A stretch of DNA of 64,000 bases from Acaryochloris sp. CCMEE 5410 (GTDB taxonomy: Bacteria; Cyanobacteriota; Cyanobacteriia; Thermosynechococcales; Thermosynechococcaceae): contig NZ_AFEJ02000001.1 of assembly GCF_000238775.2 (NCBI RefSeq), positions 1,612,001-1,676,000 on the forward strand, written 5' to 3'. The translations under genes and the position numbers were made by a program. The notes beneath the pieces were generated by a model that was given only the letters and a program-made list of their open reading frames with translations, did not search any database and had not been told where the DNA came from. Below are positions 13,662-54,373 of this stretch, one piece after another. How positions within the stretch are numbered: the first letter of the stretch is position 1; each line of letters starts with the position of its first letter.

Positions 13662-16085
13662 TTAGGTATTGACTAACTCGGTAGAGGCTGATTCTGCTGT
13701 GGGAGGTTGCCAAATAGCAGCCTTGATCAAAGCCCAAATCAAAGAAACATTGTAAATCGCCCAGGCAGAGTTCAGAAGATGTAGGCCAGGGTTATCTAAA
13801 GTACCCATTGCATACCGAATTAGGCTCCAAGAAATCCCTAATATAGTCAGAACGACAACCGTGAGTTGAGGGATTACAAGACCAACATACATCCCAGATT
13901 GGCGTTGTTTAGGAGTGACTTGAAACTTAACAGGCCGCCCCGTAAACACACTCCACACTGCTTTGATAAAGAGTGGAAAGAGTGCGATCGCAAATTGTTC
14001 TGCTCGCCATAGTTCCTCCTTCTTAATGCCCCAAGCAGCGGCCATAAAGGTAATCCGGTTGAGAATGAAAGCAGGCACAAAATGGATGGCAAACGCCAGG
14101 CCGTAGGTCTGCACGGGTATCGCTTCTGTAAAAAAGTAAATCAGCGGACAGGCAATGAAAATCAGGGTAAAAAATCCAGAAAAGTAACTATACATCGTCT
14201 GGAAGTATTGCAGCTGCTGCCAAACGGTGAGCCCTTTTTTGGTGAGAGGATTCTCTTGTAGCAAAACTTGAACGGTCCCCTGAGCCCATCTCAATCGCTG
14301 CTTTAAAGTAGAGCTGAGATCATCTGGAGCCAGACCAACCGCTAATACTTCATGATGATACACTGACTTCCACCCTGCAGCATGCAGTCGCATCGCCGTA
14401 TTCATGTCTTCCGTAATACTGGCACTGGAGACCCCACCCACTAACTCAAACTCCTCTAAGCGTTTTTGATCTGCCATATATTCATCGGCGAAATTTTGCA
14501 GCCCTGTCGTGACCAATGCTTCGCGACGTAAAACCGCATTCGTGCCTGTATAAAAGGCTGAACTCATGCCGTCCTTCCCTTGTTGAATCGGGCCATAGAA
14601 CAGACGCGCTTGATGGCCAAAGGGGTCACCGGGAGGAAGGTTATAAAAGTCTTGTGGGGTTTGAACAAAGGCAATATCGCTGTCTTTGTATGCCCCATCC
14701 TGCATACTGTAATCAAAGAAATAGGGCAGGGCTCGCTGGAGAAAATGAGGTTTAGGAATATGGTCAGCATCTAGGGTCAAGATGAGATCGCCGGTTGTTT
14801 CTCCGGAAAATAAGGCATAGTTAATGTTGCCTGCTTTAGCATGATGGGGTTTCCCTTTAGGCTTAGGACGAGCAATATAGCGACTGCGCGCTAGGTCAAT
14901 TAAGTCCTGTTCCTTTTGCTCAATGGTGCATTGTAGGGTCTTGATTTCGGCCTTGAGATAGTCCGTCACCGAGCCATATTGATGATTGAGTAGACGAGTG
15001 CTTTGTTGCAGGCTATGGAGATAACCGGCTAACTGCTGAGTTTGATCTTGAATCCCAGTGGACTCTGGTGAAAAGAACTTGATGGCAATTAAACACTGAC
15101 GTTGATCTAGAGTCGGATTGTAGCTGATAAAGTCAGTGAATTGGCTCATGATGCCAAAGCCTCTCCCTCCTTCAGCCATTAGATCCACATCTTCCAAGGA
15201 TTTGAAGATTTTGTCAGGGTTGTCTAGACCTGGACCTCGGTCCCAAATCTGCAGAACTAAGACATTGCTGGAAATGTTTAATTCCAAATCAATCGGTGTG
15301 GTGGGGGGAAGATCCTTATGGGCATATTTCAAGACATTATCCACACCCTCACCCAATACCGTTTGCAGCTCTAACCAGGGTTTCATGGGAATGTGAGGCT
15401 GCTGAAGCTGCCCAAACCAGTCCAAGGCTACTTGGGCATTCTCTCGTTTGGTTTCTAGGGTCAACGTATGAGACTTTAATTTCTCCTCTCCAGCCGCAAT
15501 TTCTGAGACAAGACTCTGGAGATGCTGCACTTGTGCCTTGAGGTGTAGACGTTGCGAGTTGATCTCATCTGCAGCGGCACGAAGCTGTGGTGTTTGCAAA
15601 TCCCCAATACATAATTGCTCCGACATTTTCCGCATTTGAGGAGAGTTGCCGTCATCCAGTACATAGACCTTCAACTTTGTCGCAGGATAGTCCATGTTAA
15701 GAGCTGCTTTCGCCGTTTCTCGAACCATCTCAACGGGTTCGTTGTAGCAGGTGATAAACACATCAACACTCGGCCATTCAGCCTCTGGCAATGCGGGGCG
15801 CATTTGTCTGAGGGGTTTAACATCTCGGACAATGGGCCGCCAGAGACCGATAAAGAACATGACGCCGCCAATATAGCTATAAATTTCCGCGAGTAATAGC
15901 GGAAGCGCTAACCACAGGGCATTGAAGTTAACCGAATTGAGGATCCGCCACTGCAAATACCAGCCCCCAAAAATGAGGTTTATGATCACCAGAAACCGAA
16001 AGAGTAGGGTCCTATCCTTTAGTCTGATGCGGATATTGCCAGAAAAAGCAGGGGTATTTTCAATAATGGGGACGGCATTAGTCAT
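13662..16085 (-). CDS. Cellulose-synthase-like GT2 glycosyltransferase with inserted RsbW-like HATPase domain
   Basis: An 807-residue membrane glycosyltransferase. GT2 catalytic motifs are split: VLDDGNSPQMRK (142-153) comes before, and TLDADHIPKP (437-446), FYTGTNAVLRR (511-521), ITEDMNTAMRLHAAGW (557-572) and QRLRW (596-600, the QxxRW motif) come after, about 245 extra residues. Those residues contain coiled-coil-like segments (165-215 and 345-400) flanking a GHKL/HATPase_c domain: N box GEGVDNVLKYAH (245-256), G1 box DRGPG (282-286), G2 box GGRGFGI (306-312), most like anti-sigma kinases of the RsbW type. Membrane spans lie near 28-85 and in the C-terminal 200 residues. No PilZ domain for c-di-GMP is visible. 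Product probably a beta-glucan such as cellulose (inference). It follows the DUF3131 genes on the same strand. Confidence 0.88.
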   Translation of the reverse strand: MTNAVPIIENTPAFSGNIRIRLKDRTLLFRFLVIINLIFGGWYLQWRILNSVNFNALWLALPLLLAEIYSYIGGVMFFIGLWRPIVRDVKPLRQMRPALPEAEWPSVDVFITCYNEPVEMVRETAKAALNMDYPATKLKVYVLDDGNSPQMRKMSEQLCIGDLQTPQLRAAADEINSQRLHLKAQVQHLQSLVSEIAAGEEKLKSHTLTLETKRENAQVALDWFGQLQQPHIPMKPWLELQTVLGEGVDNVLKYAHKDLPPTTPIDLELNISSNVLVLQIWDRGPGLDNPDKIFKSLEDVDLMAEGGRGFGIMSQFTDFISYNPTLDQRQCLIAIKFFSPESTGIQDQTQQLAGYLHSLQQSTRLLNHQYGSVTDYLKAEIKTLQCTIEQKEQDLIDLARSRYIARPKPKGKPHHAKAGNINYALFSGETTGDLILTLDADHIPKPHFLQRALPYFFDYSMQDGAYKDSDIAFVQTPQDFYNLPPGDPFGHQARLFYGPIQQGKDGMSSAFYTGTNAVLRREALVTTGLQNFADEYMADQKRLEEFELVGGVSSASITEDMNTAMRLHAAGWKSVYHHEVLAVGLAPDDLSSTLKQRLRWAQGTVQVLLQENPLTKKGLTVWQQLQYFQTMYSYFSGFFTLIFIACPLIYFFTEAIPVQTYGLAFAIHFVPAFILNRITFMAAAWGIKKEELWRAEQFAIALFPLFIKAVWSVFTGRPVKFQVTPKQRQSGMYVGLVIPQLTVVVLTILGISWSLIRYAMGTLDNPGLHLLNSAWAIYNVSLIWALIKAAIWQPPTAESASTELVNT

Positions 16086-16311: not shown

Positions 16312-19300
16312 TTATTTATCATTGTTTTTGGACAAAGCGCTATGGGGAGCCCCCCAATAGGTGCCGGTCGAATCAGTAATGAGCTGCAATTTAGGCTTGG
16401 GGGTTGGCGGTAGGCCTGTACCAATTTCTTCGTTGGCTACGGCTTTCCACCAGGGGGAGCTACGGGAGATATCCGCAACGAGTAACGGTTGGCGATCGCG
16501 CAAGCGATACAAGATGGACTGCAACACAATACTGTTGGTGGAGCCACTAAAACCAGGATTAGATTGGCCCGATTGCTCATTCACCCCTTCGTAAAAACCC
16601 AATACGGGGTTATACAGATCTAATGCTGACTGATACAGCTCTTGAGCATAGTCATTGTCAGGGAAAATTGCATGGTAGGCGAAAGCGGCAGCACTACTGA
16701 TCACGCGTTGCTCAGACTTTAAGGCTTGGTCAGCGGACGAAGCCGCCCAAGCTTTTTTATCTTTATCCAACAGACTGCTATGGATTACGTAGGGGGCTTT
16801 CGTCGTCAGGGTGGTTCCGGCTGCTGTCAACACCCCTTCACGGTTGTACCGCTCTTGTTGAGCTTGCAACATGGGTAGAACTAATTGTCGCATTTGAGGA
16901 TCTAGGCCCAGTTCTAATCCGTAAACCATAAACGGATTGCTAACGATCTGTTGATCCTTATCAGACTTCTTGCGAGGCCGGTCTCGCTCAATCGGAATTT
17001 GGAACCCTTCTAATTCGGCTGTTTTGTAGTTCCCGCCTACTGCCGCTTCTGTTACATCAAAGCCCCAAAGCTGGAAGCCTCGGGCTGCATATTCTTCATA
17101 GCCCAAGCGAGAATCTGGTTTGACTCGGATTAAACGACGGCCATTGCTGTCAGCTTCGACAAAGGCACTGTGGATACGACCGTCTCGAACAACCCGTAAG
17201 AACGACCAGTCCAATACAATCTCATCAATAATGTCGGTATAGCCTTTATGACACCCCTTGAGATTGTGGAGCGCCAACAAGAAACGGCCCACATCCAAAC
17301 CGGACCAGCCAATCCCTTCAAGAGAAGGGTTCATGCCGTAATCTACCGCCTCAAGGGTGCGAATATCATAGTTGCGATGGGGCAATTCACCACCATGTAA
17401 CGGTAACCGTTTTATTGCACCTAAAAATAAGCGAACCCGCTGATCAAATTCTTCGATGGTAATCACATCCAGGGATTCAGCCGCTTGAAGTGCTGCGATA
17501 TAGTCTCCCATCCCCCAAAGGGTTGCAACTTTCATGTCGCTGCGATCGCTCACCAGTCCCGTACTCGATTCATAATTCGCTTCAAAATATTTCCAGGCTG
17601 CTTTGGCATATCGCTTCTCAGCTAGGTGAGGTCGGCGAGTTAAGTCCTGACAGACCGAAGAATCTTTGGGTTTTCGTCCCGACAAGATGGGAGCCACAGC
17701 CACCTGAACAGGCTGATTCGGCGGTTCCGGCTGTTCTATTTTGCCGATGGGTTCTGGTGGAGGAGCTGGGGTTGATGCGACAACTGGAGCTGGGGCTATA
17801 GCAGGCGCAGGAGTCGGCAAGGATGTCGTCGTTTGACCAGGGGAGAATTGGGGACTAGCACCATCCCCTTCAATAAATTGGCAGCAAACAACTAGGTTCG
17901 GATCAATTGCGCTAGGTTGAGATACGCTTTGCTGAGTGGGAGACTGAGCAACAACAGGGCTAGGTGCTGGCGCAGCACTTGGGCCAGGCGTTGGTGCAGG
18001 AGCCGGAGCGGGTGCAGGCGCTGGAGCAGGCACTGGAGCGGGTGCAGGTGCAGGAGCGGGTGCAGGTGCGGGTGCAGGTGCAGGCGCTGGAGCGGGTGCA
18101 GGTGCAGGTGCGGGAGCAGGTGCAGGCGCTGGAGCGGGTGCAGGTGCGGGTGCAGGCGCTGGAGCGGGTGCAGGTGCAGGAGCGGGTGCAGCAGCCGGAG
18201 CGGGTGCAGCAGCTATATTATCTGGAGCTGGATAGCCTTCTGCAACGATTGTATTTTGGGGACTTCCAGTAGACGCATTAACACCATTCCCACCGATCAA
18301 CGGTCGATATCCCCTGGCCTTGTAATAGAGGATTTCCATGATCAGTCCGTTGGTATTTCCGGTCAGTGCTTGATTCGGCTGATTGGTCTCTTCATACAAT
18401 CCTGCATAAAAGCCACCACCATCCGGGCTCATCAACCCCTTCGCGACTTCAAATAATTTATCCGCATAGGGTTCATCGGGAAAGATATATCGCCAGCCAA
18501 ACGCAGCTTTGGTACTAATACTGCGTTTATCGGGATGAAGCTCATTTTTTTCGGTAATCGTAGCCCAAGCCACGCCATTGGAAAAAACAGTGTTGTAAAG
18601 GAAGTAAGGCGGGCCATCAATATTGTCTTCTGTTACAGCTGTAAGCTGTCCAGTTGCTTGATATCGACGTTTTTGAACTTCTAGAACCCGAGCGGCATAG
18701 TCTCGCATTTGGTCGCCCAGGAAACCAAATTCAATCCCATCCAAAATATAAGATTCACTCACCACATAGTTATTGGCATTTGTTTCTTGATAGGCCCGAG
18801 TATCTACAGGAATCTGCACCCCATAGATTTCGACCATTTGGAAGGGTTCAAAGGATAGTGCTTTGGGGACAGAGAACCCCCATAACTCATACCCTCGGGC
18901 TGCATATTCTTCATACCCTAGACGGCCTTCTTGTACAGGTAGGGTTTGGCCATCTTCCAGTACCGTTGCCCCAAACATATTGCCATCTTCAATGGAACGT
19001 TCAATCGCCCAGCGATCGACAATAGCCTGTAACCAGTCGGCATACTGGGGATGGCAGGTACGGAGAACATGGAAAGCTGCCAGAATTCGACCAATATCGA
19101 GAGCCGACCAGCCAATCCCCCGCTCAATGGGATTGTTGCCGTAATCCACCATGTCACCATTGGCAGCGTTATAAACCTTATTTGGCAGGCTATCTTCGAA
19201 TAATTTCAACCCAGCCAAAGAAGTTAGAAACTTATTCAGCTTTTGATCTAATTCCTCTTGCGGGATCAGGTTCATCCACCGGGCTGCATTCAGAGCCATC

Positions 19301-20982
19301 AGGTAGTTGCCCATATCCCATAAGGTTCCGGAGGGATAGCCTCCTGATGAGTTGGTAAACCCAGTTGCTTCTTGATAGTTATTGACAAAATATTGCCAAG
19401 CAGTGCGAGCGTAGGTTTCTTCTTCCGGCGTTAAAGGATTGGTAATGCCCCCACAGGAATTATCGCCAGGTGGTGGGGGGGGAGCCGCAATAGGTGCTGG
19501 AGATGGAGCTGGGGTAGCCGCAGGTGTGGGAGCCGGAGCTGGGGCCGGGGCTGGAGCCGGAGCTGGGGCCGGGGCTGGAGCTGGGGCTGGGGTTTGGGCC
19601 GATGCAGGTGCAGGAAACTCTTCCATGACCACGGTCGTTTCAGGGGTTCCAGTCGAAGCACTAACGCCATCCCCCCCAATCAGTGGCCGATTGCCTCTGG
19701 CCTTGTAATAGAGGATTTCCATAATCAGCCCGTTTGTGTTTCCGGTTAAGGATTTATTGGGCTGTTGGGTCTCTTCATACATGCCAGCAAAAAAACCGCC
19801 ACCGTCCGGACTCATTAATCCCTTGGCAACCTCAAAAAGTTGTTGAGCGTAGGGATCATCTGGAAAAATATAGCGCCAACCAAATGCTGCCTTTGTGCTG
19901 ATACTGCGTTTATCAGGGTGGAGTTCGTTCTTTTCCGTGATGGTGGCCCAGGCGACACCATTAGAGAAAACAGTGTTGTAGAGGAAGTAGGGCGGACCAT
20001 CAATGTTATCCTCAGTCACTGCTGTCAATTGGCCTGTGGCCTGATAGCGTCGCTTCTGAACTTCAAAGACCCGGGCTGCATAGTCCCGCATTTGGTCGCC
20101 TAAAAAACCAAATTCAATGCCGTCTAAGATGTAGGACTCACTGACAACATAGTTATTCGCATTGGTGTCTTGATAATTACGCGTATCGACAGGAATTTGC
20201 ACCCCATAGATCTCGACCATTTTGTAAGGTTCAAAGGACAATGCCTTCGGAACCTGAAAATTCCAAAGTTCGTATCCTCTGGATGCATACTCTTCATATC
20301 CGAGGCGACCTTCCTGTACTGGCAAGGTTTGACCATCTTCAAGGACTGTAGCCCCATACATATAGCCATCTTGAACAGAACGATCAACCGCCCAGCGGTC
20401 GATGATAGCTTTTAACCAATCTGCATATTGCGGGTGACAGGTACGTAAGACATGGAATGCAGCTAGAATACGGCCTATATCTAGGGCAGACCAGCCAATC
20501 CCCCGCTCAATAGGGTTGTTGCCATAGTCCACCATGGCTCCATCGGCAGCGTTATAGACCTTATTCGGTAAGCTATCTTCAAAAAGCGTTAATCCAGCCA
20601 GGGAAGATAGAAATTTGTTCAGTTTTTGGTCAAACTCTTCTTGTGGAATCAGGTTCATCCATCGGGCTGCGTTGAGGGCCATCAGGTAGTTGCCCATATC
20701 CCACAGGGTGCCTGAAGGGTACCCCCCGGTAGAGTTGGTAAAGCCTGTCGCTTCTTGATAGTTATTCAGAAAGTATTGCCAAGCAGTGCGGGCGTAAGTT
20801 TCCTCCTCTGGTGTCAGAGGATTTGTAATCGCACCACATTCATTGGCTTCTTGGGCATAGGCAGCCTTCTCTGTAGTAAAAGGTAGCCACAGAGGAGGAG
20901 AAAAAATGCCTAATGCCAACCAGGCAACTAGTCTAACTATTGGCAGAGGACGACGTCGCTTCATCAGATAGGATGGCCCCAA
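16312..20982 (-). CDS. Secreted three-domain DUF3131 protein with Ala-Pro linkers
   Basis: A 1556-residue exported protein. A signal peptide follows MKRRRPLP (in-frame ATG at 20964, an alternative start) and ends near AAYAQEA. Three DUF3131 domains lie at about 50-435, 520-905 and 1120-1525. The first two are almost identical (LWDMGNYLMALNAARWMNLIPQ, GRLGYEEYA, SLTGNTNGLIMEILYYKARG); the third is much more diverged. They are joined by long alternating Ala-Pro linkers, probably rigid spacers through periplasm or wall. DUF3131 resembles (alpha/alpha)6-barrel carbohydrate-active folds, so polysaccharide binding or trimming is plausible but unproven. It precedes the glycosyltransferase gene by 226 bp on the same strand. 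Confidence 0.85.
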   Translation of the reverse strand: MGPSYLMKRRRPLPIVRLVAWLALGIFSPPLWLPFTTEKAAYAQEANECGAITNPLTPEEETYARTAWQYFLNNYQEATGFTNSTGGYPSGTLWDMGNYLMALNAARWMNLIPQEEFDQKLNKFLSSLAGLTLFEDSLPNKVYNAADGAMVDYGNNPIERGIGWSALDIGRILAAFHVLRTCHPQYADWLKAIIDRWAVDRSVQDGYMYGATVLEDGQTLPVQEGRLGYEEYASRGYELWNFQVPKALSFEPYKMVEIYGVQIPVDTRNYQDTNANNYVVSESYILDGIEFGFLGDQMRDYAARVFEVQKRRYQATGQLTAVTEDNIDGPPYFLYNTVFSNGVAWATITEKNELHPDKRSISTKAAFGWRYIFPDDPYAQQLFEVAKGLMSPDGGGFFAGMYEETQQPNKSLTGNTNGLIMEILYYKARGNRPLIGGDGVSASTGTPETTVVMEEFPAPASAQTPAPAPAPAPAPAPAPAPAPAPTPAATPAPSPAPIAAPPPPPGDNSCGGITNPLTPEEETYARTAWQYFVNNYQEATGFTNSSGGYPSGTLWDMGNYLMALNAARWMNLIPQEELDQKLNKFLTSLAGLKLFEDSLPNKVYNAANGDMVDYGNNPIERGIGWSALDIGRILAAFHVLRTCHPQYADWLQAIVDRWAIERSIEDGNMFGATVLEDGQTLPVQEGRLGYEEYAARGYELWGFSVPKALSFEPFQMVEIYGVQIPVDTRAYQETNANNYVVSESYILDGIEFGFLGDQMRDYAARVLEVQKRRYQATGQLTAVTEDNIDGPPYFLYNTVFSNGVAWATITEKNELHPDKRSISTKAAFGWRYIFPDEPYADKLFEVAKGLMSPDGGGFYAGLYEETNQPNQALTGNTNGLIMEILYYKARGYRPLIGGNGVNASTGSPQNTIVAEGYPAPDNIAAAPAPAAAPAPAPAPAPAPAPAPAPAPAPAPAPAPAPAPAPAPAPAPAPAPAPAPAPAPVPAPAPAPAPAPAPTPGPSAAPAPSPVVAQSPTQQSVSQPSAIDPNLVVCCQFIEGDGASPQFSPGQTTTSLPTPAPAIAPAPVVASTPAPPPEPIGKIEQPEPPNQPVQVAVAPILSGRKPKDSSVCQDLTRRPHLAEKRYAKAAWKYFEANYESSTGLVSDRSDMKVATLWGMGDYIAALQAAESLDVITIEEFDQRVRLFLGAIKRLPLHGGELPHRNYDIRTLEAVDYGMNPSLEGIGWSGLDVGRFLLALHNLKGCHKGYTDIIDEIVLDWSFLRVVRDGRIHSAFVEADSNGRRLIRVKPDSRLGYEEYAARGFQLWGFDVTEAAVGGNYKTAELEGFQIPIERDRPRKKSDKDQQIVSNPFMVYGLELGLDPQMRQLVLPMLQAQQERYNREGVLTAAGTTLTTKAPYVIHSSLLDKDKKAWAASSADQALKSEQRVISSAAAFAYHAIFPDNDYAQELYQSALDLYNPVLGFYEGVNEQSGQSNPGFSGSTNSIVLQSILYRLRDRQPLLVADISRSSPWWKAVANEEIGTGLPPTPKPKLQLITDSTGTYWGAPHSALSKNNDK
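17992..18209 (-). repeat. Ala-Pro codon repeat (second linker)
   Basis: Short-period repeat built from GGTGCAGG / GGAGCGGG units, encoding alternating Ala and Pro on the minus strand within the DUF3131 protein. Because the units are nearly identical, slippage and copy-number change between strains are likely. It creates long spurious open frames on the opposite strand. Confidence 0.85.
19497..19610 (-). repeat. Ala-Pro codon repeat (first linker)
   Basis: GGAGCTGGGGCC-type units encoding alternating Ala and Pro between DUF3131 domains 1 and 2. Codon choice differs from the other linker (GGGGC-rich here, GGTGCAGG-rich there), so the two linkers expanded separately rather than being copied with the domain. 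Confidence 0.8.
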
Positions 20983-21046: not shown

Positions 21047-22537
21047 TTAAGTTCCCAGCTCAGAAACACCAGCCCAAACGGCTAAAGGTTTGCCAACCTT
21101 TTTGAATAATAAGCACTCTAAGATAATGCCATTATTATTAGCTGTCAATACGGCATTTGGCTCATCTAAGGTCTCATAAAAACCACTGTACCAGCCTTTT
21201 TTTGAACCAACTTTTTCTTGCACAAAAGAAAACAGCTTTTTGGTGTAATCCGTGTTGTAAAGAACATGCCAACCAATTGCCGCTTTCGTACTAACAAAGC
21301 GAAGATGATTGTAGTTTTCTCCGGTATCACTAATGGTTGCCCAGGGCTTACCGTTTACATACAAGGTGTTGTAAACAAAATACGGTTCCCGATCTAAATT
21401 ATCTTCCGTGATAGCGGTCAATTGCTTCGTCGCTTTATAACGGGCTTCCTGAGCGGCTAACATCCGATCTGCATAGGCCTTAGGTAGGGCTTTAAAGCCT
21501 GTCTCAATGCCATCCAAGAAGAACGGCTCACTTAATACGTAATTATTCGCTTCCGAATTTTCGCGATCGCGCACATCAAATGGAATGCTATGGCCATAGA
21601 GTTCAACAAAGGCTGACTTGTTGTCATAATCTAACGCCTTATCAACATTGAGCCCCCAGAGCTTCAAGCCATAGGCTGCATAATCTTCGTACCCTAAGCG
21701 TCCTTCCTGGTTGTATTGCTCTTGCCCATCTTTGATGCTGGTGCCATACATCTGGCCATCTTTCGTCAACCGTTTGACATCCCAGGCTTCCCACACTGCC
21801 GTGGTTTGGGGCTCAAACTCGGGATATTTGGCAGCAATGATTTTTAGCCAGAGGGCAATTCGCCCTAGATCAATCGCCGACCAGCCAATTTCTTCCCGCT
21901 TGTCGAGAGAACCATAATTCACCGGCATCAGGTTTTGGGAATTGTAGACCTTATTGGGAAGCTCTCCCTTATACAATTCCAGTTTGGCAAGAGTGGTCAA
22001 CATCTTGCTCATGGTTGCTTTGAATTCCTTTTCTGAAATCAGGTCCAATTCTTTGGCACTGACCACAGCCGCCATTGCTGCACTTTGATCCCAAAGGGTC
22101 ACCGATTGAAATTGATCAACCGAATTAGCCAAACCTGTGTCTGGATTAATATTGGTCTCAAAATAGCTCCAAGCCTTCTTGGCGACCTTTAGCTCAGCAG
22201 GGGATAGTTTACCGACATGTGCTGGGATATAAGGTGTGGTTGTTTTTGCAATTTCTTGTTTGCTCACCCGATCACCTGGAAATTTAATTGAGCGGGAATC
22301 AGGCTTTTCATTCTTGGCCTTGGGTTTCGCCTTGGTGGTGTCAGAGGTCTTTGAACTAGGAGCGGTAGCAGTGGTCGTAGGGCCAGACTCTTGAGTCGAT
22401 TCCTTTTGGGAAAGATTGCCCGATAACATTTCTAAACCTGCGATCGCAGCGACGGCTGTCACTACCCCCCCTAAGTAGGTGAGAAAAGCAAGTTTTTTAG
22501 GTGGCATTTCGAAATTAGAATTCATGACTGCTCCCAC
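21047..22537 (-). CDS. Single-domain DUF3131 protein, membrane-anchored
   Basis: A 496-residue protein with an N-terminal membrane anchor (KLAFLTYLGGVVTAVAAIAGLEML, about residues 14-37), a polar Ser/Thr/Lys-rich stalk to about residue 110, and one DUF3131 domain (AKKAWSYFETNINPDTGLANS to the C-terminus). Shared landmarks with the larger neighbour: GWSAIDLGRIALWL, GRLGYEDYAAYGLKLWG, YFVYNTLYVNGKPWATI. It lies 64 nt upstream of that neighbour on the same strand, so they are probably an operon. Enzymatic role unknown. Confidence 0.85.
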   Translation of the reverse strand: MGAVMNSNFEMPPKKLAFLTYLGGVVTAVAAIAGLEMLSGNLSQKESTQESGPTTTATAPSSKTSDTTKAKPKAKNEKPDSRSIKFPGDRVSKQEIAKTTTPYIPAHVGKLSPAELKVAKKAWSYFETNINPDTGLANSVDQFQSVTLWDQSAAMAAVVSAKELDLISEKEFKATMSKMLTTLAKLELYKGELPNKVYNSQNLMPVNYGSLDKREEIGWSAIDLGRIALWLKIIAAKYPEFEPQTTAVWEAWDVKRLTKDGQMYGTSIKDGQEQYNQEGRLGYEDYAAYGLKLWGLNVDKALDYDNKSAFVELYGHSIPFDVRDRENSEANNYVLSEPFFLDGIETGFKALPKAYADRMLAAQEARYKATKQLTAITEDNLDREPYFVYNTLYVNGKPWATISDTGENYNHLRFVSTKAAIGWHVLYNTDYTKKLFSFVQEKVGSKKGWYSGFYETLDEPNAVLTANNNGIILECLLFKKVGKPLAVWAGVSELGT

Positions 22538-22738: not shown

Positions 22739-24745
22739 TTAAAAATCGATTCTCAACTGCCCAGAAAAGATATGGCTATTACTGGCCCCAGACCCACTTG
22801 AAATGATGTTGGTGAGAACATAACCAAAATCAAGCTCTACATTATCGGCCAAAGATGCTGTACATTTCGCTTGTAGTCCTCGACCAGTACTTTTTCCCCC
22901 ATTCACGACTTGGTTACCAATAGAGGCAGCAAATTGGCAGGTTAAAGGGTCAAAAATTTTGCCTTTCCAACCCACTTCAGCGTTGTAGAGTAAAAAACTG
23001 AGGGGCGAAAAATAGCCACTCTCTGATTCTAGATCTTCCGCAAAGTTCCAGGTGAATACGTTCGCAGCGACAGAAAAAGGTCCGATTTTTCGTTCTAATC
23101 GACTAAAAGACTGGATTTCTTGGTTGCCATCATTGAAAAATCCAGCTTGGAGCAGCCCAAAGAAGGTGGTTTTGCTATCAATTTGCCAAAATACACTTGG
23201 ACGAATTCGCCAATAGCTAATTTCATTCTCTAAAGTCGTGGTGTTGAATTTATAAGGACCATGCTCGACTTCTCCAGAAACCAAGACTTGTCCAAAAAGG
23301 GACGTTTTTGCTCCCACCTTAAAAGTAGGCTGAGGATCTAAACGGTTGAAGACTTCAGCACCCGCCGCCACATTGATGGAAACATCTCCAACTTCAGTCT
23401 CCCATCCTAAAATCAGCGGAATATTCTTGACGGGTTCTTGCCCTTCCTGGCTATAGGTGTTTACCCCTGTTGTAAAGGTGACAACATCTCCATTCCGAAC
23501 CCGAAAAGTCACTATTTCTTCGATTTTTAGGTTTTCTTTGCCAAACTCATCGAAATCTAGCTTGAAATCAGTCGTCGAACTCTCTAAGACAATAAAAGAC
23601 ACCTGTGGATCATCAGCGGCTCCAATCGGGGTTAATTCAGTAGGGAACCGATCTAGAGGTGCTTTTTGAGGCGGCTGAAGGGGGAGGTCTGGAGGTACCG
23701 TAGGAGATTGAGCAGTCGTTTGTGCAGGAACCTTAGGTGTATCTTGCACCAGCACAGGCTGAGAAGTAGGTGAAATATTTTGCTGTGGTGGGGGCGAGGG
23801 AACGGATCGGAAACGAGGAGTAGATGAAGGGGAGGGACTATTCCGAGAAGATTCTGGAACAGTTGGTTGGGACCTTTGTTGTAGCGTTGGGGGCGGACCT
23901 GATGGACGGACAGCAGGGCTAGAATGAGGTGCTGGATGAGTAGGCATTGCCGCACCCCCTGTCGCAGAATCCTTGGGAAGAGTAGAAGAGGGTATATTTC
24001 GAGGAACGGGACCTGAAGGACGGACCGTTGGACTATGGGCAGGAGCACTATCAATGGGAGTTGCCGCACCTCCTTCAAAAGAATCGGGGAGGGAAGGGCG
24101 TGTTGGGATATCTATTGGTCGAGGAGCTGGACCTGATGGTCGGGCCGCCGGACTATGGGCTGGTGTTGCTGCACCGCCTTGAAAATCATCGGGTGAGGAG
24201 CGAGGAGGAATATTAGTTGACCGAAGAGCTGGACCTGAAGGACGGGCTGCTGGACTATTGGTAGGAGGTCTAGGGGTTGCCGCACCTCCGTGAAAATTAT
24301 CTGATGAGGGCAGTGGTGAGGCTATTGGCTGAGGATCTGGACCTGAAGGACGGGCCGCTGGACTAATAATTAGTAAGGGTGAATTAGGTGGAACTGGGGA
24401 TGGAGAATATGGCTGAGAATTCTCCACTAGCGGAACTCCATCCGCCTCTGCTGGAATATTCACATCAGTTGGAAATGAAGCTCCGCCTTGGGGGCCTGCT
24501 GCAGATGGGCTGGTCGGGGTAATGGTTGGCGAGGAGGGGAAAGGTTGGGGAGAAGCCTGGGGACGTGCAGGCTTTTTCTGAGAACGGTCAGGTTGATCAA
24601 TAGGCTGGAGCAAACCGGGATTCAACTCATAGGGGCCTGCCACTAACATCGGCTGTTGAATCACAGGCGAGGATAACTCCTGAGCCTCTGGCGTATTGAG
24701 GTCAGTTTGACAGCCTAAGCATAGCGTTGCCAACACGGAAAGCAT
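22739..24745 (-). CDS. Probable outer-membrane beta-barrel protein with proline-rich repeats
   Basis: A 668-residue protein. It opens MLSVLATLCLGCQTD, a short hydrophobic segment ending in a lipobox-like LGC, so it may be a lipoprotein. Residues about 120-290 carry five copies of a roughly 38-residue repeat centred on RPSGP and GGAATP (the last two degenerate), then another Pro/Ser-rich stretch. From about residue 390 on, alternating hydrophobic strands and a final aromatic residue (GQLRIDF) suggest a porin-like barrel. As the first gene of the locus it may be the outer-membrane exit for the polysaccharide, in the place BcsC has in cellulose systems; that is inference from position and fold only. 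Confidence 0.65.
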   Translation of the reverse strand: MLSVLATLCLGCQTDLNTPEAQELSSPVIQQPMLVAGPYELNPGLLQPIDQPDRSQKKPARPQASPQPFPSSPTITPTSPSAAGPQGGASFPTDVNIPAEADGVPLVENSQPYSPSPVPPNSPLLIISPAARPSGPDPQPIASPLPSSDNFHGGAATPRPPTNSPAARPSGPALRSTNIPPRSSPDDFQGGAATPAHSPAARPSGPAPRPIDIPTRPSLPDSFEGGAATPIDSAPAHSPTVRPSGPVPRNIPSSTLPKDSATGGAAMPTHPAPHSSPAVRPSGPPPTLQQRSQPTVPESSRNSPSPSSTPRFRSVPSPPPQQNISPTSQPVLVQDTPKVPAQTTAQSPTVPPDLPLQPPQKAPLDRFPTELTPIGAADDPQVSFIVLESSTTDFKLDFDEFGKENLKIEEIVTFRVRNGDVVTFTTGVNTYSQEGQEPVKNIPLILGWETEVGDVSINVAAGAEVFNRLDPQPTFKVGAKTSLFGQVLVSGEVEHGPYKFNTTTLENEISYWRIRPSVFWQIDSKTTFFGLLQAGFFNDGNQEIQSFSRLERKIGPFSVAANVFTWNFAEDLESESGYFSPLSFLLYNAEVGWKGKIFDPLTCQFAASIGNQVVNGGKSTGRGLQAKCTASLADNVELDFGYVLTNIISSGSGASNSHIFSGQLRIDF

Positions 24746-24862: not shown

Positions 24863-26230
24863 TCATTTTTCTGTCTGTTTAGAGGAAATAGGTCGCCATC
24901 CAGGTAATACACTTTGCCGTTGACGCGCCACGACTAGGGCATCATCACCGACATTCTTAGTAATTGTGGAGCCTGCCGCCACGGTAACATTTGCCCCTAA
25001 GGTGATCGGAGCCACTAAGACGCTGTTTGCACCTGTTTTGGTGCGATCGCCAATCAGAGTTGGATGTTTATTCACCCCGTCATAATTGGCAGTAATGGTT
25101 CCTGCACCAATATTGACCTGGGTTCCTAAAGTGGCATCCCCTAGATAAGACAGATGGGCAACGTTGGTGCGATCGCCAATGGTCGTTTTTTTCATTTCAA
25201 CGAAATTACCGACCCGGCATTTCTCACCAATCTGTACATTCCCTCGCAGATGCGTATAAGGCCCTATCCGGGAGTTGTCGCCCACTCGGCTGTCCGAGAT
25301 AACAGAATAAAGAACCTGTACATTAGCGCCAATATGGCTGTTCTCAATCAAACTCCCAGGACCGATACGGCTACCGGTATCAATTTTGGTATCGCCCCGT
25401 AGGTGGGTTTGGGGTTCGATAATGACGTCGGTCGCCAATTTAACGGTTTCATCGATGGTAATGCTGTCTGGATCCACAATTGTCACGCCAGCAGCAAGCC
25501 AATCATCCTTAATCCGATCTTGCAAAATCGTGTAGGCGGTGGCTAATTGTTTGCGATCGTTAATTCCTAGAATTTCTTGATAATCATCGACATCCAGAAC
25601 CATAACTGGATCTAGATAGTTAACTGCATCGGTCAGATAATATTCTTTTTGATCATTTTCAGCTTTCAGGTTTGGTAACACTTCGGCTAAAGCCGACCAG
25701 CGAAAACAATAGACCCCTGCATTGATGCGTTGATTTTGACGTTGGGCGGGGGTACAGTCTCGATCTTCAATAATTTCTTGCAAATGCATTTGAGCATCGC
25801 AAAAGACCCGACCATAACCTTTGGGATTGGGCAATTGGGCTGTCAAAATGGTCGCTGCATTCTGATGCTCTTGATGGGTTGCCAACATCTTTTGCAACGT
25901 CCCAGGTCGGAGTAAGGGGACATCGCCGTTGAGGACGAGTAAGTCTCCTGTAAAGCCTTCCATCACAGGCAGCACTTGCTGGACGGCGTGGCCTGTGCCT
26001 AATTGCTCCGCTTGTTCCACAAATTCTAAGTGCGGCCAGCCTTGCATTTCTGTCCGCACTTGATCAGCGGAATAGCCCACAATCACAATCTGACGGGATG
26101 GAGAAAGGTTTTGGGTGCTGCTTAATACGCGCTCAACCAGGCTCTTACCCCCTAACTGATGTAGGACCTTGGGCAGGTTTGACCTCATACGTGTGCCTTT
26201 ACCCGCTGCCAAAATTGCTACCGCGATCAT
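24863..26230 (-). CDS. glmU: Bifunctional UDP-GlcNAc pyrophosphorylase / glucosamine-1-phosphate acetyltransferase
   Basis: Makes UDP-N-acetylglucosamine for peptidoglycan and LPS. The 455-residue length is typical. The N-terminal nucleotidyltransferase has [17 protein letters not shown] (residues 7-23) and [12 protein letters not shown]; the C-terminal half is a left-handed beta helix of hexapeptide repeats ([18 protein letters not shown] and following), with the acetyltransferase segment [14 protein letters not shown]. It is a single gene after the polysaccharide locus, about 120 bp upstream of the barrel gene on the same strand. Confidence 0.97.
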
Positions 26231-38347: not shown

Positions 38348-38674
38348 TTATGAAATGATAGGGGCCTCATTTTTTTGCTGAAATTCTTCCTTGTCTGTAA
38401 AAATATCGAAAATTTGGTCCATTCTAGATAATTTCAACACAAGACTAACCTGCTTTCTCATTGAACAGATAGATAGCTTGCCACTTCTACCATGCACTGC
38501 TTTATGCATCGCGACTAAAGCACCAATTGCCGAACTATTGATAAAGGTGACATCTTGCAAATCTAATAGGATCGTTTTAACGCCTTCATTCAGCACCGTG
38601 TCAATTTCATTGCGTACCTGGTTAAGACCAATTCCGTCTGTCAGGCTGAGGGGTTGGATAATTTTATAGCTCAT
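38348..38674 (-). CDS. STAS-domain anti-anti-sigma factor
   Basis: A 108-residue STAS protein. ILLDLQDVTFINSSAIGALVAMHKAV carries the Ser of the phosphorylation site typical of SpoIIAA/RsbV. Such proteins release a sigma factor or other target by binding an RsbW-like kinase. Start 38674 (MSYKIIQPLSL) is set by AGGAG 8 nt upstream; the longer frame to 38806 is not supported. No RsbW gene adjoins it. The only RsbW-like domain seen in the window is the one inside the glycosyltransferase at 13662-16085; a link is speculation. Confidence 0.85.
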   Translation of the reverse strand: MSYKIIQPLSLTDGIGLNQVRNEIDTVLNEGVKTILLDLQDVTFINSSAIGALVAMHKAVHGRSGKLSICSMRKQVSLVLKLSRMDQIFDIFTDKEEFQQKNEAPIIS

Positions 38675-38935
38675 TGGTTGCACTCCTAGGTCAGATCTGT
38701 TGGTTTTGAGTCTGGTAAAGGCGAAAAAGCCACCAATGAATGACCCGTAAACCATAAGGAATTCGTTGTGTACCCAGAATTCCCTTTTCTGAAAGCGAGT
38801 GAACATTCACAACACAACAAGTAAACCTCGGGACGGTTTTATGTTCACCAGAGTAATTTGAAAGCACTGAAAATCCTGGAGATGTAGTAGGGGGCAAAGA
38901 AATTTGGTTAGGCAAGAACTTTGGTAGTCCACTCA

Positions 38936-51838: not shown

Positions 51839-54373
51839 CATTATGTTGAAGGCATTGTCAATCAACTTTCAGAAGCAATTGAGGCTGCCGGATGGACAGT
51901 TGGCTTTCATATGGGTGGCAATAAAAGCGGGCGTAATGAGTTTATAGATGGCTCTATTGATATTTTGATCGCTAGTAGCGCTATGGCTACTGGTGTAGAC
52001 GGCTTTCAAAGAGTCTGTGATCGATTGATTCTGAATATTCCACCTTGGACAAGTGCCGAACTGGAACAGCTTGAAGGCCGATTAAATAGACAAGGTCAAT
52101 CCCACGATACTCTCTCTATTATTATGCCTGTCACTTATGGGATAGATGATGGCGAACATTGGAGTTGGGATGAGGGGCGTCTAGCGCGTTTGCAAAATAA
52201 ACAGACTGTTGCTGATGCAGCTGTCGATGGTGTGATGCCCGAAGGACAATTACGCACTGAGTCGCAGGCCTTCCGCGACCTACGCAAATGGCTTGAGCGT
52301 CTTAAGATAGGTGAGCAAAAATCGATTACTAGACCAAAGATCTTTGTCCCACTTCCAGATGAAAATCTAGGCGAAGTCCATCGCCGTCTAGCCCGATATG
52401 GAGACTTTAGCCGTATGAGTGCGCGGTGGAGTAATAGCTATAGTCATACGAATTTTGGGCGACTGCAGCGTAATCCTGAAGAGTGGATGCAATATCACAC
52501 CCTCTATCAGCAAGCTCGACAAGATTGGAACGTGATTCCTTATAAAGAAACGATCAAATGGCTTCAAAACCGTTCTAATTTGATAGTTGCTGACTTTGGT
52601 TGTGGAGAAGCACTGATTGCAAAAGAGATATCAGATTTACATACAATTCATAATTTTGATTTTGTCGCAATCAATGATTCAGTTATTGAATGCGATATGG
52701 CAAATGTGCCATTAGAGGACGCTTATTTAGATGTTGCCCTCTTTAATCTTTCACTAATGGGCCGCAATATTTCTGATTACATTCGAGAAGCAACCCGGAC
52801 ACTGAAGCTTGATGGACAATTATTAATATATGAAGTGAGTTCTCACTTTAAAGATCTTCAAGGATTTATTCAAGGTCTTGAGCATGCAGGATTTAAGATC
52901 ATCGAAAGTTCGGAAAGATGGAAGTTTAGATATGTTCGAGCTATAAAGACTGAGGAAATTGATTATGCACAGATTGCAGTAAATCTTTAATGTATCGATA
53001 AGGTCACCAAGTCGATAGAGTGATTAAGGTCATGTATTTCGCATGATTTATGAGGCTACTTATTTTTGGTTGGATCTGAATCCATGCCTTTATCCTCCAA
53101 AGAAATGCAAGAAGTTGCAACCCAAATTGATTTTGAGCCTGGGATTTTCTCCATAATCGGATCAGAGTCTCCAACACTCTTGAAGAAGCTGGAACTAATT
53201 CAATACTGGTATGAAGAAGTCTTCGCTCAGCTCGAACAAAACTTACCCCCTACTGTCCAGATCCAAAAAAATGTTGAATTAGAGGGAACGGGTAGCGATC
53301 GCTTTATCAAATTGCAGCTTGATGGCGTTTTTTTTGAAGTGAATACCCCTGACGCTATCTCAGTAATCCTCAGACTACGATCCAAGCTTCCCAAAGGCTA
53401 TATGCCAATCACGCTAGATTTCCAACGGCGAGAAGAACTCCTCAAAGAAGACTTTGAAGGGGCGTAGCTAATGGATCGGGGATGCCTTAGACTTCGGAAT
53501 GGTTACCCCTGGGAATAGGGAGTCAAACCGTTGATTGACCCAGGCAAGCCGCAGCATGAGTAGATGATTGAAACCATCCTCACTCCAGCGCATACCAACC
53601 CCTTAAAGCGCTGTTGAATCAGCCACTTACAAGCACTTTCGACCATTCCTGACCCCAGCGGTATCTGTAGTTGTTCAAAGTGGCGATATTGGATGTGTCG
53701 CAGATGGCGCTGGAAATAAGCCTGTACCTGGAGCAACGTCGTAAAAGATTTGCCCGTAAACAATTGTGAGTGAATCAACATCGTCAAGGACCGCAATACT
53801 AATAGGTGTTGCCCATGTCGCAATTGGTGTCGCCAGCGCCGAAACCAGGCTTGGGCTTGAGCAGAGCGAGCATCCCCAAACATCGCTTTGTTGCTCGTGC
53901 AAGATGGCCTGCTGCATGAAAGAAATCGAGAACTGCCACAGCACAGTGAGAGAACAAGGTGCGGTAGACTCGCCAGAAGCCTCGCCCCCATCACTCAACC
54001 AGATGACGCTTGGGGCCGATTCAAAGTCTTGTTTGCGGGCTTCGAGGTGCAGTAAGGGGATGAACTGGTCGATATCGCCCAATACTGCCACCAGTCTTCG
54101 ACGTAGTAGTTGGGGGACACGCTTTTGTGCTCGGGTGCCCCGTGTTCCTAGGCGGGCTAAGATAGCAACTTTGACTTCTCGCCACTGGATTTTCCCTTGG
54201 GGTTTTCGGGGTGGGGCGAAAGGGCACCATCACACCGTCAGCAGCAATGGCCAAAGGTAGAGCAGACAACACCTCTGAAATCGCTTCACAAGGAGTCTGG
54301 TCACCTGAGGCTTGAGCTTTGAGTTGAGTCTCTAGCTCCTGATAACGGCCCGTTCGCTTATTCTGGGGAACCC

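Follow-up and report, generated by a model that had tools for sequence, protein, structure and literature searches.

The synthase gene and its catalytic core

The window analysed here, a stretch of 64,000 nucleotides from Acaryochloris sp. CCMEE 5410, encodes a cellulose-synthase-like enzyme of family GT2 that carries a grafted HATPase domain. Its open reading frame begins with an ATG and specifies 807 residues. The gene, its upstream neighbours and one more distant gene of interest are as follows.

13662..16085, minus strand: cellulose-synthase-like GT2 enzyme with grafted HATPase, 807 residues (open reading frame, Pfam, family alignment)
16312..20982, minus strand: triple-DUF3131 protein, upstream gene in the same cluster (Pfam; conserved neighbour in most loci)
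21047..22537, minus strand: single-DUF3131 protein, upstream gene (Pfam)
22739..24745, minus strand: probable protein of the outer membrane, matching BCSC_C weakly at E 0.0047, under the cut-off (conserved neighbour cluster c4)
38348..38806, minus strand: STAS protein of graft-partner type with an NSSA motif, some 22 kb upstream; the genome has three such candidate partners (Pfam, tree, motif)

Sequence on both sides of the insert matches cellulose-synthase and GT2 families in Pfam (PF03552 at 118.7 bits, PF13641 and PF13632). The catalytic motifs are placed around it as listed, with HAKAGN intact at residues 415-420.

15648..15656, minus strand: DDG motif, residues 144-146, on the N-terminal side of the insert (D144 and G146 in 22/22 grafted synthases, D145 in 21/22)
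14763..14771, minus strand: DAD motif, residues 439-441 (invariant in 43/43 family members)
14406..14414, minus strand: TED motif, residues 558-560 (D560 in 21/22 grafted and 21/21 ungrafted synthases)
14286..14300, minus strand: Q(R/K)LRW motif, residues 596-600, QRLRW in the window (family alignment)

A preliminary description of this DNA had the GT2 motifs intact on either side of the insert and no PilZ domain. Both points hold: DDG, HAKAGN, DAD, TED and QRLRW are all present, and Pfam finds no PilZ domain in the window synthase at E ≤ 0.1, nor any at E ≤ 0.01 in the ungrafted synthase of locus L011. The window synthase scores 325 bits against the NCBIfam model for CelA (TIGR03030), below its cut-off of 699. 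Judged by its sequence, on the absence of PilZ and the CelA cut-off, the enzyme is not a BcsA, and control by c-di-GMP through PilZ was rejected because the domain is absent.

Position and shape of the insert

14886..15614, minus strand: entire insert, roughly residues 158-400, between helix 2 and strand 3 of the GT2 fold (alignment with BcsA spans the junction; PilZ-type synthases lack the insert; 243 residues against 103-120 in ungrafted members)
15480..15590, minus strand: outgoing arm helix, residues 166-202 (AlphaFold2; present with or without the graft)
15066..15473, minus strand: grafted SpoIIAB/RsbW-type HATPase domain, residues about 205-340 (Pfam, Foldseek/VIA, tree)
14898..15044, minus strand: return arm helices, residues 348-396 (AlphaFold2)

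The central claim of the preliminary description, that a HATPase domain lies within the GT2 core, is borne out by an insert of about 240 residues (158-400) that contains Pfam HATPase_c_2 and is shared by intact homologues. Because the same architecture occurs in 22 intact family members, the window's included, from several cyanobacterial families, the insert is due neither to chance nor to an assembly join; an assembly or frame artefact was accordingly rejected. With the insert excised in silico, the alignment to E. coli BcsA runs through the junction and opens a gap of one residue, which places the insertion point between GT2 helix 2, behind DDG, and strand 3, ahead of HAKAGN. In R. sphaeroides BcsA some 15 additional residues come directly behind DDG, and PilZ-type synthases from the same cyanobacterial family are without the insert. 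The arm that carries the domain has its roots about twelve residues away from the motifs DDG and HAKAGN, which bind UDP.

AlphaFold2 predicts arm helices at residues 166-202, 348-366 and 373-396, with pLDDT mostly 60-90. The flanks had been described as coiled coils, and of that claim the long helices stand in the model, while the heptad pattern is only weakly significant in the first arm helix (93 of 5,000 shuffles scored as high) and not significant in the last by the shuffle test. The full-length AlphaFold2 model is poor (pTM 0.39). Since most of the GT2 C-terminal half has pLDDT below 50, the orientation of the arm, the placement of the head and access to the active site cannot be read from it.

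The head resembles SpoIIAB and RsbW

Pfam identifies HATPase_c_2 (PF13581) at residues 217-330 with 49 bits (E 7.5e-13, cut-off 27.4), and NCBIfam gives weak matches of the insert to the anti-sigma factors SpoIIAB (E 1.3e-4) and RsbW (E 0.0054). Modelled alone, the insert has a confident HATPase core (mean pLDDT 75.6) with a poorly ordered ATP lid and long flanking helices. The closest solved structures found with Foldseek/VIA are SpoIIAB in complex with SpoIIAA (Z 17.7) and RsbW/RsbV (Z about 16; range for the group 15.8-17.7), histidine kinases ranking lower with Z below 10. A HATPase of the histidine-kinase type was rejected on that far lower structural score, on a HATPase_c match of 23.3 bits against a cut-off of 26.4 and on the lack of HisKA. 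The three nucleotide-binding boxes are located as follows.

15336..15350, minus strand: N box EGVDN, residues 246-250 (E246 and N250 do not vary; residue 249 is Asp in every graft)
15228..15242, minus strand: G1 box DRGPG, residues 282-286 (D282 and G284 invariant in grafts)
15153..15170, minus strand: G2 box GGRGFG, residues 306-311 (R308 in 21/22 grafts, R or K; G309 in 22/22)

These boxes are complete, as had been read from the window, and the survey of homologues proposed to challenge the idea of an ATP-dependent or partner-switching regulator did not refute that idea: E246, N250, D282, G284 and G309, together with D249, are invariant in 22/22 grafts. The last glycine of G1 and that of G2 vary among the grafts, and in the stand-alone relatives too. 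By sequence and predicted fold, the insert meets the criteria of the SpoIIAB/RsbW kind; its kinase activity is inferred.

Grafted and ungrafted forms of one family

Homologues of the synthase were identified in Acaryochloris, Symplocastrum, Coleofasciculus, Calothrix, a Nostocaceae MAG, Pseudanabaena and further cyanobacterial genomes. They come in two forms with a highly conserved GT2 core, one of about 800 residues with the HATPase and one of about 660-690 without it. We count as grafted 22 intact synthases, including that of the window; neighbourhood counts use 23 loci, one truncated synthase being added.

All members of the family, grafted or not, have a helical arm at the junction. In the ungrafted members it is bare and spans 103-120 residues (about 106), and the grafted insert measures 243-246 residues in 21/22 cases. 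The difference, about 137 residues, corresponds to the size of the stand-alone HATPases (mostly 138-142 residues), which indicates that a complete HATPase was placed inside the arm or was split out from it. The graft HATPases form one clade with support of 99/98, and their relatives, present in 298 of 390 cyanobacterial genomes, are nearly all stand-alone proteins that adjoin the synthase in the ungrafted genomes. Presence of the graft requires two changes on the unrooted GT2 tree; with an outgroup that is too distant, the tree fits both gain of the graft and its loss with fission.

Two members depart from the common pattern. The graft-bearing synthase of G131 (L081:8583-10937) has broken catalytic motifs (DDG to DEG, HAKAGN to LVQTGT, TED to TEK and QRLRW to EKLHW) and keeps both the head and an adjacent STAS gene, making it a possible pseudo-polymerase. 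The grafted synthase of G587 (L097:8707-10398) has an open frame of only 563 residues with no STAS gene nearby, and is probably a degraded copy.

A partner-switching module in complementary arrangements

The ungrafted synthases are followed downstream by a STAS gene, a divergent gene for a response-regulator-PP2C protein (SpoIIE domain) and a stand-alone HATPase gene, as assigned by Pfam. Wherever the flank of an ungrafted locus reaches 6.8 kb or more, all three are present (17/17). Near the grafted synthases, not one stand-alone HATPase turned up (0/23 loci). There, a STAS gene lies within 1.2 kb downstream in 17 of the 23 loci, in distant cyanobacterial families, and one more locus has STAS and PP2C genes upstream. 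A PP2C gene falls inside the flanks of 9 grafted loci and was not found in those of the 14 others, some of which are short. Free STAS-PP2C-HATPase modules are encoded elsewhere in other genomes, including the window's own (G000 C2). The case for the graft being the kinase in a partner-switching module rests mainly on this complementarity of graft and stand-alone protein in gene neighbourhoods.

The two arrangements also differ at single residues. Position 249 of the N box is Asp in 22/22 grafts and Thr, Ile or Ala in the 38 stand-alone proteins (Asp in 0/38). The phosphorylatable Ser is retained in all 18 graft-adjacent STAS proteins that have the motif and is preceded by Asn in each of them (a truncated frame in L008 lacks the motif), whereas Asp precedes it in 20/20 STAS proteins encoded beside ungrafted synthases. 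That this Asn/Asp position would contact the N box is inferred by analogy with what is generally known of the SpoIIAB-SpoIIAA mechanism. With a single graft clade and two changes on the GT2 tree, very few independent events underlie both the complementarity and the paired substitution; the patterns of graft, neighbour and residue are strong as description and weak as statistics.

Within the stand-alone proteins, those of Nostocaceae type (L066-L080) have Ser in place of the G1 Asp in 12 of 17 synthase-linked cases, which form one clade, mostly of family f7. They keep the catalytic Glu and the Asn and may not bind ATP normally, so that normal use of ATP does not hold throughout the wider system.

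Dispersed candidate partners in the window genome

Neither a STAS nor a PP2C gene adjoins the synthase of the window, or that of L001. Besides the STAS gene within the window, the genome holds two others of graft-partner type, at C1:2118967-2119290, whose product is 82% identical to the graft-adjacent STAS of L004 or L003 (tblastn), and at C1:2257935-2258315. The three group with the graft-adjacent STAS proteins of Acaryochloris (99/97; bootstrap values are rough). A REC-PAS-GAF-PP2C protein encoded at C1:199785-201890 is 82% identical to the graft-adjacent phosphatase in L003, another Acaryochloris. As far as sequence can tell, the partner-switching module of this genome is complete but dispersed.

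Proposed working of the graft

We consider it probable that a serine kinase and switch protein of the RsbW/SpoIIAB type, belonging to a partner-switching module, has been fused into a processive GT2 polysaccharide synthase, and that phosphorylation of the STAS protein gates synthesis. With the kinase fused into the polymerase, the phosphorylation state of the STAS protein is proposed to control polymer synthesis directly. The head would bind ATP/Mg and the unphosphorylated STAS protein, and would phosphorylate the STAS serine, upon which the STAS protein would be released. A sensor PP2C with REC, PAS and GAF domains would strip the phosphate when its input signal is present. Docking or departure of the STAS protein would then move or re-pair the arm rooted beside DDG and HAKAGN, turning synthesis up or down; alternatively, the pairing of heads between synthases may change. 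Unphosphorylated STAS is expected to mean synthesis on, by analogy with SypA (PMC10120452) and with the suggestion made for HmpV (PMC8256260). A more specific version, towards which we lean with less assurance, is that the built-in head makes the polymerase the terminal output of the STAS/PP2C system, through an arm placed like the plant P-CR beside the UDP motifs, and that the ungrafted arm docks the free HATPase.

The preliminary description had put forward a regulator, either ATP-dependent or partner-switching, that acts on the polymerase itself. The partner-switching part is well supported by gene neighbourhoods, and the genomic evidence for a putative partner-switching kinase inside the synthase is strong; direct action is inferred from the fusion and has not been demonstrated. 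The fold, the nucleotide residues, the composition of the module, the graft/stand-alone complementarity and the paired changes (T to D and D to N) can be read from the sequences, while kinase activity, STAS binding, direct gating and the sign of control are all inferred, with no biochemical evidence.

The invariance of the nucleotide residues across grafts would suit an energy or nucleotide sensor, in which a head that binds ATP/ADP lets energy charge gate the synthase and STAS is not the main input, as would the lack of an adjacent STAS gene in the window and in L001. We think this unlikely, given that a STAS gene is the downstream neighbour in 17 grafted loci from distant families, that the STAS motif differs with the graft and that partner-type STAS proteins are still encoded in the window genome. 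To a similar degree we doubt that the head serves merely as an assembly platform, dimerizing or recruiting STAS so as to cluster synthases with no catalytic switching. SpoIIAB and RsbW are indeed dimers and the arm sits at the site of the plant CESA P-CR coiled coil, a proposed CESA-CESA contact, but the catalytic Glu and Mg-binding Asn in 22/22 grafts, and the conserved Ser of the STAS proteins, point to a phosphorylation cycle.

That the closest folds are anti-sigma factors raises the further idea of a membrane-anchored anti-sigma factor, the synthase being anchor or sensor and the head sequestering a sigma factor to tie synthesis to transcription. No sigma gene was noticed in the clusters and the ungrafted module pairs with a synthase, which leaves this idea improbable, though there are no data on sigma binding. 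Least credible is a neutral or decaying insertion without function: the G131 lineage does carry the graft on a synthase with dead catalytic motifs, yet an insert length of 243-246 residues in 21/22 and nucleotide residues invariant over wide divergence are hard to reconcile with it.

Relation to known systems

A fused partner-switching kinase, the reading we prefer, shares with RsbW and SpoIIAB of B. subtilis the HATPase_c_2 fold, the N, G1 and G2 boxes, a STAS partner with a phosphorylatable Ser and, in the 9 grafted loci with such a gene in their flanks, a PP2C phosphatase of SpoIIE type. Those proteins are free anti-sigma factors, whereas the graft is a domain lodged within a membrane polysaccharide synthase; its N box reads E..DN with partners NSSG, NSTG or NSSA, where RsbW/SpoIIAB and the cyanobacterial stand-alone modules have E..TN with DSSG. 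HmpU, HmpV and HmpW of Nostoc punctiforme form a cyanobacterial PP2C/STAS/HATPase switch tied to motility and polysaccharide, although we have no data on orthology. The hmpV gene lies apart from hmpU and hmpW (Npun_F5169 versus R5135/R5134; PMC10581220), and HmpV acts on an effector so far undefined (PMC6495340). In Vibrio fischeri, the STAS protein SypA, controlled by the kinase and phosphatase SypE, promotes an exopolysaccharide biofilm below the level of transcription, again with its target stated as unknown (PMC10120452). No fusion to a synthase is reported for HmpUVW, and SypE, unlike the graft, is a separate protein that unites kinase and phosphatase.

With BcsA and the cyanobacterial c-di-GMP cellulose synthases, the enzyme shares the GT2 core (DDG, D-x-D, TED, QxxRW and membrane helices). 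BcsA has PilZ, which the grafted synthase lacks; the partner-switching head appears to be what regulates the latter. The arm, in turn, is missing from E. coli BcsA and from cyanobacterial synthases of PilZ type. The plant CESA P-CR is an insertion at the same place in the GT2 fold (work of 2017 cited in PMC6508838), with about 116 residues between matched flanks and no HATPase. The flanks of the arm map to residues 20-66 and 182-245 of the 7ck1 chain, in the interval from the DDG helix to the strand that precedes K-A-G. A 6-row arm profile gave no match to the P-CR; coiled coils are hard to match by sequence, and homology is not excluded. All4160 of Anabaena, as cited in PMC8256260, is a fusion of STAS with a glycosyltransferase; on that brief account it is a looser precedent, the fused domain being STAS and not a kinase, and N-terminal and not inside the catalytic core.

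The openly licensed literature yielded no paper linking HATPase, STAS or partner switching to a cyanobacterial cellulose synthase and no characterized enzyme of such build, in keeping with the preliminary description, which knew of none. The regulation of sigma factors is the role for which partner-switching modules are mainly known. A natural kinase-synthase fusion, with an unfused version in relatives, provides a concrete candidate target and indicates which component touches it. For SypA and HmpV, the two polysaccharide-related cases, published accounts describe what lies downstream as unknown (PMC10120452, PMC6495340). The graft further suggests control of cellulose-like synthases free of c-di-GMP, and a regulatory use for the insertion site shared with the plant P-CR arm.

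Surrounding genes

A literature search on DUF3131 together with cellulose yielded nothing useful. In the protein encoded at 16312-20982, beside the single-copy DUF3131 gene, long Pro/Ala repeats link three DUF3131 copies. Upstream of the cluster there is a GlmU-like gene, at 24863-26230 in the window, and also in L002; several Nostocaceae clusters have a PIG-L-type GlcNAc de-N-acetylase gene between synthase and STAS (L066:6537-7247 and similar). Given these de-N-acetylase and GlmU-like genes, the polymer may be one with GlcNAc in it and not cellulose. The ungrafted cluster of Nostoc sp. UHCC 0926 (L152, NZ_CP117772.1 887917-905854) is located on the 1.04 Mb plasmid pn1. Elsewhere in the window, at 51911-52990, a single frame of 359 residues combines a Methyltransf_8 match with a weak Helicase_C match.
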